Shown here: positions 20,760-32,959 of the stretch, piece by piece
Layout of the letters: each line of letters begins with the position of its first letter
Numbering within the stretch: position 1 is the stretch's first letter
Origin: Candidatus Faecivicinus avistercoris
Lineage (GTDB): Bacteria > Bacillota > Clostridia > Christensenellales > Aristaeellaceae
DNA length: 32,993 bases
Direction: 5' to 3'
Assembly: GCA_018716805.1 (NCBI GenBank)
Contig: DVJL01000011.1
Coordinates: forward strand, 1-32,993
Position numbers and translations under genes: made by a program
The notes under the pieces: generated by a model
Seen by the model: only the letters and a program-made list of their open reading frames with translations
Told to the model about the DNA's origin: nothing
The model's database searches: none

Positions 20760-20993
20760 ATTTCAGTCCACGCTTCCCTCGCGAGTAGCGGCGCAGGCGG
20801 CGATGGAAATATGGAACGGGTTCGACATTTCAACCCCCTCCCCTTACGGGGAGCGACCCTGCCTGCGCGTGGCGTAGGAACAGCATACGCTGATTTCAAT
20901 CCACGCTTCCCTCGCGGGGAGCGACCTGCACCGCCTTCCAGCACACCTACCTGCATGGAAATTTCAACCCACGCTCCCCTCGCGGGTGGCGGC
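20760..20993 (-). CRISPR. Degenerate (relict) type I-C-like CRISPR array: four recognisable repeats, possibly a fifth at 20695-20727; no cas genes in window
   Basis: Minus-strand repeats: 20961-20993 GCCGCCACCCGCGAGGGGAGCGTGGGTTGAAAT; 20893-20925 GTCGCTCCCCGCGAGGGAAGCGTGGATTGAAAT; 20827-20857 GTCGCTCCCCGTAAGGGGAGGGGGTTGAAAT; 20760-20792 GCCGCTACTCGCGAGGGAAGCGTGGACTGAAAT. Periods 68/66/67 bp, spacers 34-35 bp, type I-C-like 3' end GTGGATTGAAAT. Confidence 0.82.
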
Positions 20994-21896: not shown

Positions 21897-22296
21897 ACCG
21901 GACGGGCGGTATGCCCATCCGGTCTCAGCTTGTCAAAAAGCTTTTGACAAGCTGGTGGACGGGGGAGCAAGCTCCCCCGCCAGGTGCCGCGCCTCAAATT
22001 TTCAATTTGAGCCGCGGCAGTTTCGCCCGCAGGGCGAAACCGCAGAATCCTGCGGATTCTGCGCCTTCTGCCACCCCCACCACAATTTGCTTGAGTTTTC
22101 CTTGGGAAAACTCAAGCAAATTGTGCAAGGAAGCGATTTTTGCTCTGGGGAATGAATTCCCCGACGCAAAAATCAGCACCCGTGCCCGACGTACACGCCG
22201 TCGGCCACGATTTTACCACGAGAGGGCTCTGTCTCTCGCGCTCTCCTAAGGCTGGACAGATCGAAACCGGACGGGACGCATGCCCATCCGGTCTCA
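21897..22296. repeat. Hairpin-array element bounded by two copies of a terminator-like hairpin
   Basis: Flanking direct repeats ACCGGACGGG(CGGTA/ACGCA)TGCCCATCCGGTCTCA at 21897-21927 and 22266-22296; nine further inverted repeats between them. Confidence 0.85.
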
Positions 22297-23349: not shown

Positions 23350-23385
23350 AAACGGATGCCGTGTGGACAGACCTCGCGGCGTTCC

Positions 23386-23470
23386 GCTTCCCTCCGGTGG
23401 GATTATCCACTTCAGGTTCCAAGGGACCGGACGAAACGTCCATCTCAGCCTTTCGGCGCCCCTAGCGGTT
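23386..23470 (-). ncRNA. TPP riboswitch (THI element)
   Basis: Minus strand CTAGGGGCGCCGAAAGGCTGAGATGGACG...GGTCCCTTGGAACCTGAAGTGGATAATCCCACCGGAGGGAAGC: THI-box motifs GGGG..GCTGAGA, GAACCTGA, GGATAAT and GAGGGAA. Confidence 0.93.
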
Positions 23471-23600
23471 GAGATTATTGTATGCGCGTCCGCCGCGTTT
23501 GTCAAGGAAAGTTTTCGGGCGAACGGCCAAAATCCGCGAAGTCCACGATTATACAATCAAATCGAAATAGAATTGCAACATCCTGCCGTCCCTGTGGCCG

Positions 23601-27668: not shown

Positions 27669-27700
27669 GGGGCGATTCCCTTGCGGGAACCGCCCCTCAG
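27669..27700. repeat. Direct-repeat hairpin, left copy (32 bp)
   Basis: GGGGCGATTCCCTTGCGGGAACCGCCCCTCAG, identical to 27898-27929. Confidence 0.95.
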
Positions 27701-27896
27701 GATGTTGACAAAGTCAACATCCTGCCAGAGCGATGAAAAAACCGCAAGACAAGGAAGCAAGCTGGCAGACAAGGGAGCTTACATGGGCGTAAGTGACCGC
27801 AGTCTGCAAGCGCCGCTGACGCTGGAAGCAAAAATTGCCTCTGACTTCTCTCTTGTCAGGGCAATTTTGCGTTTGCGGGCTTTGTCAGCGCGCTGA
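27698..27896. repeat. Structured repeat element, copy 1
   Basis: CAGGATGTTGACAAAGTCAACATCCTGCCAGAGCGATGA...TTTGTCAGCGCGCTGA; matches copy 2 over its full length. Confidence 0.9.
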
Positions 27897-27897
27897 G

Positions 27898-27929
27898 GGG
27901 GCGATTCCCTTGCGGGAACCGCCCCTCAG
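27898..27929. repeat. Direct-repeat hairpin, right copy (32 bp)
   Basis: Identical to 27669-27700. Confidence 0.95.
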
Positions 27930-27953: not shown

Positions 27954-28967
27954 TTATTCCACCAGCCCCGCGACGTTCTCCGCGCGGTAACCGAGCTCTT
28001 CGCGCAGCGCGGCCTGATCCGGCGTGCCGGACAGCAGCACCTTGCCCTCGCCCTCGAGCGCGACGCCCTCCATCTGCGCGGGCACGAGCACGCTGTCGAA
28101 CGGGTTCAGCTCGAGGCTGTCGTCCGCCCAGCGCAATGTGACCGGCGACATCGGCGTCAGGAAGCACATCCGGCCGGAACTGAGCGGCATGCGGCCGGAC
28201 AGGTTCAGGCGGCACAGCTCAAAGTGTTTCTCCGAGATGTAATACGTCCGGCTGCCGCCCTTGCAGAGCACGGTCGTGCCCTCGATCTTGGGCAGACGGC
28301 GATCCGGGACGCTGACGTCCAGCGCCTTTTCGGTGTGCAGCTCGCGCGGCCGGCCGTCCTTGCCGACGCGGCCCCAGTCCCAGAAGCGGTAGGTCGCGTC
28401 GCTCGACTGCTGGATCTCGTAGACCTGAATCCCCGCGCCGAGCGCGTGCACGGTGCCGTTGGGGATGTAATAGACGTCGCCGGGGCGCACGGTCTCCCAG
28501 TGCAGCGCACCCTCGAGCCGGCCTGCCTCAACCTCGGCGCGCAGGTCGCCGCCGTTCAAGTCGAGTCCATAGGCGATCTTCGCGCCCGGCTCGGCGTTGA
28601 GCACGACCCACGCCTCGCTCTTGCCGAGCTTTCCCTCGTGGGCCATTCCATATTCGTCGCCGGGGTGCACCTGAACCGAAAGCGTCTGCTTTGCGTCGAG
28701 CAGCTTCAGAAGCAGCGGGAATTCGCCCTGCATCGGGCCGGTCAGCGCCTCGCCCCACAGCTCGATCATGCGGGAAAGCGTCTTGCCGGCGTGGACGCCG
28801 TTGCGAACCATGCTCTCGCGGCCGGGCAGCGCCGAGACCTCGAGGCTCTCGCCGGTGCAGTCGTCGGGCGCATCCTTCATAAAGACGTCGCGCAGCATCG
28901 AGCCGCCCCAGGGGGTCTCCTCGCCATGGCGGAAATAGGGCGCCATCAACAGCGGATAGATGTTCAT
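27954..28967 (-). CDS. manA: Mannose-6-phosphate isomerase, class I
   Basis: MNIYPLLMAPYFRHGEETPWGG...FPLLLKLLDAKQTLSVQVHPGDEYG...KSEAWVVL...GDVYYIPNGTVHALGAGIQVYEIQQSSDATYRFWDWGR. Confidence 0.95.
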   Translation of the reverse strand: MNIYPLLMAPYFRHGEETPWGGSMLRDVFMKDAPDDCTGESLEVSALPGRESMVRNGVHAGKTLSRMIELWGEALTGPMQGEFPLLLKLLDAKQTLSVQVHPGDEYGMAHEGKLGKSEAWVVLNAEPGAKIAYGLDLNGGDLRAEVEAGRLEGALHWETVRPGDVYYIPNGTVHALGAGIQVYEIQQSSDATYRFWDWGRVGKDGRPRELHTEKALDVSVPDRRLPKIEGTTVLCKGGSRTYYISEKHFELCRLNLSGRMPLSSGRMCFLTPMSPVTLRWADDSLELNPFDSVLVPAQMEGVALEGEGKVLLSGTPDQAALREELGYRAENVAGLVE

Positions 28968-32714: not shown

Positions 32715-32959
32715 ACAGCATTGTTGATACTATGCTCAGGATGTTGACAAAGTCAACATCCTGCCAGAGCGATGAGAAAGTCTGCAAGACAAGGAAGTAA
32801 ACTTGCAGGCAAGGGAATTTACTTGAACGTAAGTGACCGCAGCCTGCAAGTGCGGACGACACTGGAAGCAAGAATTGCCTCTGACTTCTCTCTTGATCAG
32901 GGCAATTTTTGTGTTTGCAGGCTTTGTCAGCGCTCTGACAGCATTATTGATACAATGCT
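32715..32959. repeat. Structured repeat element, copy 2 (core 32737-32938) with flanking duplicated hairpin
   Basis: CAGGATGTTGACAAAGTCAACATCCTGCCAGAGCGATGA...TTTGTCAGCGCTCTGA flanked by ACAGCATTGTTGATACTATGCT (32715) and ACAGCATTATTGATACAATGCT (32938). Confidence 0.88.

Follow-up and report, generated by a model that had tools for sequence, protein, structure and literature searches.

A window of 32,993 nucleotides, the whole stretch of Candidatus Faecivicinus avistercoris DNA analysed here, contains two copies of a short folded repeat (Table 1). The repeat, referred to below as a MITE, is 199-202 bp long and lacks a transposase gene; it has no conserved ORF and shows indels and covariation instead. 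The element proper terminates in CTG, which places its boundaries at 27698-27895/6 for copy 1 and 32737-32937/8 for copy 2. Elsewhere in the window, degenerate copies of ATTTCAATCCACGCTTCCCTCGCGGGGAGCG, which we take to be a type I-C-like CRISPR repeat, occur at irregular spacing in positions 20760-20991 and resemble a decayed CRISPR array. The sole Rfam match in the window, a TPP riboswitch on the minus strand at 23372-23473 (74.6 bits), lies outside the element.

Table 1 Features of the two MITE copies and their flanks in the window
Feature	Position	Strand	Remark
5' copy of duplicated target hairpin, GGGGCGATTCCCTTGCGGGAACCGCCCCT	27669..27697		direct repeat with 27898-27929
MITE copy 1, CAGGATGTTGACAAAG...CTTTGTCAGCGCGCTGA	27698..27896	+	199 bp
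Terminal hairpin P0, includes left end repeat CAGGATGTTGACAAAG	27698..27724	+	counterpart at one end of IS1182 elements
5' arm of closing stems P1/P2	27727..27755	+	pairs with right end of element
Core motif (CAAGGA..GGGAGCTTAC-loop-GTAAGTGACCG..TGACGC)	27742..27836	+	model R1, E 3.1e-13; shared with non-MITE elements and rRNA-operon spacers
Hairpin P5, AAAATTGCC..GGCAATTTT	27828..27870	+	changes on both sides in 9 of 11 pairs
Right end (3' arm of P1/P2)	27872..27896	+	right end repeat is read on the other strand as TCAGCGCGCTGACAAAG
3' copy of duplicated target hairpin	27898..27926		direct repeat
5' target palindrome at copy 2, ACAGCATTGTTGATACTATGCT	32715..32736		duplication
MITE copy 2	32737..32938	+	core at 32782-32876
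3' target palindrome at copy 2, ACAGCATTATTGATACAATGCT	32938..32959		duplication

Distribution of the repeat

The element gave 37 matches in its own genome, a 2.83 Mb draft in 149 contigs, and the true copy number is probably higher because several matches lie at contig ends. Copies were present in 7 of 39 relatives, comprising three of the four genus relatives and members of four other genera, and were also identified in Ca. Pullichristensenella and other Clostridia MAGs. Phage and plasmid records yielded no match. Several variants were observed. Two copies (L048 and L054) are about 280 bp long and carry an extra folded insert near position 124, and a third (L060) is a short form of 152 bp. 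On the minus strand of L008, at 1501-1701, the loop of the terminal hairpin reads TTT where the others have AAA, as would result from an inversion of the palindrome.

Folding of the repeat

A first-pass annotation of the same DNA had proposed that the repeat folds into nested stems, and every one of these stems was found where that annotation had placed it. The terminal hairpin of copy 1 is identical in copy 2 (32737-32763). The closing stem AGAGCG (27727)/CGCGCT (27889), the second stem CCGCAA (27742)/TTGCGG (27873), the third stem GCAGAC (27765)/GTCTGC (27802), the CTTAC/GTAAG inner hairpin and the long hairpin formed by AAAATTGCC and GGCAATTTT are all present, and the two compensatory changes described between the copies, C-G to T-A in the second stem and A-T to G-C in the third, are real. 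Copy 1 has an A.G mismatch at the third pair of the closing stem, and its CCGCAA stem carries a 1-nt deletion relative to the family, in which the majority pair is T.G.

Two copies alone would have been weak evidence for selected folding. An absence of significant covariation in the proposed stems would have refuted the first-pass proposal; covariation was significant in an alignment of 54 copies that spans genera. Changes on both sides were seen in 23 of the 60 pairs of this alignment. Paired cells amounted to 96.5%, compared to 89.2 +/- 0.3 in shuffles, and pairing fell to 30-42% when the partners were slid by 1-3 columns. The number of cells changed on both sides was 234, against 64 +/- 8 in shuffles, and the covariation score was 0.256 against 0.122, with none of 500 shuffles reaching the observed value. 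The most informative helices were the inner stem 27761-27770/27802-27811 and the AAAATTGCC hairpin. Alignment cells are not independent events, and kinship of the copies inflates the cell counts; even so, the loss of pairing on sliding and the range of genera covered argue that the structure is real. G.T cells outnumbered A.C cells (181 to 37, or 97 to 36 after removal of two pairs with a wobble majority), which suggests that the plus strand is the strand that folds. A comparison with Rfam, which the first-pass annotation had put forward as a check, matched the element to no family at the gathering score. Neither the element nor the core copies had a credible family in Rfam scans, and the core is absent from Rfam 15.

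Duplication of whole hairpins at insertion sites

Nearly all intact copies of the MITE sit between direct copies of an unrelated, terminator-like hairpin that differs from locus to locus. These flanking duplications, the key feature of the element, lie outside the coordinates of the first-pass annotation and were missed by it, as were the transposon family and the presence of the core beyond the MITE. The direct repeats around copy 1 consist of the 32-nt GGGGCGATTCCCTTGCGGGAACCGCCCCTCAG on both sides, with 100% identity over 32 nt, and hairpin duplications were also found at 29 of 33 further copies. Across 52 sites, from which known duplicates were removed although a few may still represent one locus drawn from two collections, the duplication ranged from 20 to 41 bp and its length followed that of the hairpin (correlation 0.92). 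The ends of the duplication coincided with the hairpin feet, with a median offset of 0 at both ends and an absolute offset of at most 3 nt in 51 and 50 of the 52 sites, respectively. Hairpin scores had a median of 9.0 at these sites and 3.8 in shuffles.

The target hairpins are inferred to be terminators from their form and their position beside gene ends; only about half have a T-run of at least 4 after or before them. With respect to terminator T-runs, the MITE showed no preferred orientation (10 against 11), and a fixed role of the MITE as a 3'-UTR RNA was thus unsupported. In G002, a relative from the genus, the orthologue of the gene at window positions 27954-28967 is followed by one hairpin without the element. 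The sequence of that hairpin differs, and the locus is hence not an exact pre-insertion site. The paired hairpin copies of one locus often show a few base differences, indicating that many of the insertions are old.

IS1182-family elements with the same ends

IS1182-family elements of the same bacterial family have ends in common with the repeat (CAGACC..TTGACAAAG). They start with CAGACCGTTGACAAAGTAAAGTCAGCGGTC or CAGACCGCTGACAAAGCC and finish with matching inverted repeats; the IS end is CAGACCGCTGACAAAGCC in L099 and CAGACCGTTGACAAAG in L101, and the MITE right end is TCAGACCGCTGACAAAGCC in several relatives. Like the MITE, these elements carry a small hairpin at one end. Exact duplications of a palindrome, 31, 22 and 21 bp long, border three of them (L101, L102 and L105, respectively). 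The proteins of L101 and L102 scored 438.6 and 357.8 bits against NF033551 (cut-off 270) and contain DUF772 and DDE_Tnp_1_6. In Ca. Pullichristensenella stercorigallinarum, a MITE meets an IS1182 end at a shared hairpin, the order being hairpin-MITE-hairpin-IS1182 at L166 and IS1182-hairpin-MITE-hairpin at L147, and two genomes (G071 and G112) contain both an IS1182 element and many cores.

The IS1182 matches obtained at first in 40 genomes were partial genes without matching ends; complete elements later showed matching ends. In the draft genome that carries the window, IS1182 genes are only broken or partial, and the active transposase there is unidentified. Other TIR-like matches in this genome were mostly chance matches in coding sequence. 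A search of 35 IS1182 loci with the core model described below gave no match, which speaks against an IS-derived MITE interior; such an interior is expected only of MITEs that arose by internal deletion. The repeat is therefore no fragment of a coding transposon, the other outcome that would have overturned the first-pass proposal, and shares only its ends with IS1182.

A second, unrelated repeat occupies window positions 21897-22296, with the element at about 21926-22265 and hairpin copies at 21897-21927 and 22266-22296. It is a string of about six hairpins and gave 80 matches in the genome; its copies number about 40 or more. Its copies start with CAGCTTGTCAAAA and end with TTTTGACAAGCTG, resembling the IS1182 element L105 and unlike the ends of the first MITE, and duplicated hairpins were observed at L313, L314, L321 and L322. 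This repeat is likely another hairpin-duplicating MITE. Because it has IS1182-type ends as well as duplicated hairpins, such MITEs appear to be a recurrent theme in this genome.

The folded core outside the MITE

The core of the MITE is one member of a broader family of structured elements. A covariance model, R1, was built from 25 non-MITE copies only and matched the core of copy 2 (32782-32876) at E 5.1e-9 in addition to that of copy 1. The R1 copies had been chosen by a 27-nt pattern derived from the MITE, and the hairpin part of the match is consequently biased; covariation in the other stems is unbiased, with changes on both sides in 11 of 20 pairs. Non-MITE cores appear as long rods that have outer stems of their own and recurring GA/GA internal loops; some of these cores lie in tandem arrays. 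They were recorded at L135, L141, L151, L164, L172, L176, L179, L184, L189, L193, L205 and other loci, and in G036, G398 and G443; single copies were seen in Gracilibacteria, Campylobacterota and Sulfurovum MAGs. In protein-coding contexts, scored with a simple ORF caller, the core was mostly antisense and near gene 3' ends (antisense downstream gene at 41 of 50 scored sites).

Cores adjacent to rRNA genes were identified by an R1 search without the 27-nt pattern. All lie on the rRNA strand. They precede 23S by 15-16 nt in G365 and G301 and by about 40 nt in G170, precede 16S in G301 and G446, and stand between 23S and 5S in G286. The 16S context in G446 was assigned from the sequence start and not from an Rfam match. 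The loci with the core motif on the sense strand beside rRNA genes (L247-L253, L258, L259, L261 and L283) come from several Clostridia families. Full-text literature searches covering the core sequence, antitermination RNAs of rRNA operons and MITE/IS1182 papers found no description of the element.

Discussion

The repeat is very probably a MITE moved by an IS1182-family DDE transposase that acts on hairpins, its mobilisation in trans being inferred. Mobility is indicated by the dispersal of many copies, no two of them in one and the same duplicated hairpin, and by the ends shared with the IS1182 family. This agrees with the first alternative of the first-pass annotation, a non-autonomous mobile element carrying a structured RNA, which the dispersal, the locus-specific hairpins, the IS1182 ends and the covariation across genera all fit. 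The structural part of that suggestion is supported by the covariation, but an action of the core as RNA in this genome has not been shown and any such function remains inferred.

The target of the proposed mechanism would be a structure and not a sequence, namely the palindrome of an intrinsic terminator or a similar hairpin. The element ends would be joined at the hairpin feet, which on a cruciform are the two 5' feet, and repair would then copy the whole hairpin to both sides, giving a target duplication as long as the hairpin. With one hairpin copy on each side, the insertion should be nearly harmless and the site could be targeted again, although this too is inferred. The MITE presumably captured a conserved folded core between IS-type ends, as IS1182 elements occur without the core. 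Dispersal in multiple copies, shared ends, duplication of whole hairpins and covariation are established as far as sequence comparison allows; no transposition was observed, and the cruciform chemistry is an inference.

Bacterial MITEs such as MITEAba12 are short, non-coding, IS-derived elements present in many copies. The repeat is of this kind, but its target is a whole hairpin, its duplication varies from 20 to 41 bp, and its interior is a conserved folded motif that also exists outside the transposon. The closest systems are IS1272 and TnSha1 of the IS1182 family, which target hairpins, often terminators, without a sequence consensus (PMC5678879, PMC4923244). The transposase family, the hairpin targets without consensus and the inverted-repeat ends are as found here. 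IS1272 and TnSha1 replace or trim the target hairpin without duplicating it (PMC5678879, PMC4923244), whereas the hairpin stands on both sides in the 52 sites described here. Duplication of the whole stem-loop, through attack of the 3' ends on the two 5' feet of a cruciform, has been presented as a possible pathway (PMC5678879, Fig. 13b). The natural sites reported here show the pattern predicted for that pathway, with the chemistry inferred.

Other routes of spread were considered. A folded RNA might be reverse transcribed into terminator hairpins, with the duplications arising from target-primed copying. This would account for the terminator targets and for a structured sense strand with more G.T than A.C cells, and group IIC introns are likewise structured elements that enter beside terminators. 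We give it scarcely any credence, as the ends are held in common with DDE-transposase elements that have the same duplications, orientation is unbiased with respect to terminator T-runs, and no group II intron model in Rfam gave a match; nor do we know of any hairpin duplication by group IIC introns. The strong covariation and the conserved unpaired motifs would also suit a stand-alone family of structured RNA genes spread by recombination, in which the flanking hairpins would belong to the RNA itself. That is very improbable when the hairpins vary between loci yet left matches right within each, and when the termini are sharp and common to IS1182.

Folded, intergenic and present in many copies, the repeat also recalls REP/BIME elements, and could have been moved as single-stranded DNA by an HUH (RAYT) transposase, the folding serving recognition of the single strand. 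The antisense position of most non-MITE cores near gene 3' ends points in the same direction. HUH transposition produces no target duplication, however, whereas the repeat has both target duplications and terminal inverted repeats, and the MITE ends match DDE elements. We consider such an origin of the MITE barely credible; an HUH/RAYT reading may still be applicable to the non-MITE core copies. Returning to the IS1182-driven MITE, it is conceivable, though unlikely, that its core is an RNA element acting on transcription or pre-rRNA in Clostridia rRNA operons, such as an element for rRNA-leader processing or a processive antiterminator, captured by a terminator-inserting IS1182-type MITE. If this were true, an element that lands in terminators would bring along an RNA that allows readthrough by polymerase or shields the transcript.

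Hairpin targeting by the IS1182 family was known from IS1272, where the hairpin is lost, and the roughly fifty natural sites found here show the opposite, its entire duplication. As the hairpin, instead of a constant stagger, determines how long the duplication is, the cruciform strand-transfer model becomes directly testable. The cargo is a covarying motif without an Rfam 15 entry that, in other Clostridia, also immediately precedes 16S and 23S rRNA genes. This small mobile element therefore points to an undescribed family of RNA (or single-stranded DNA) with a possible general function.
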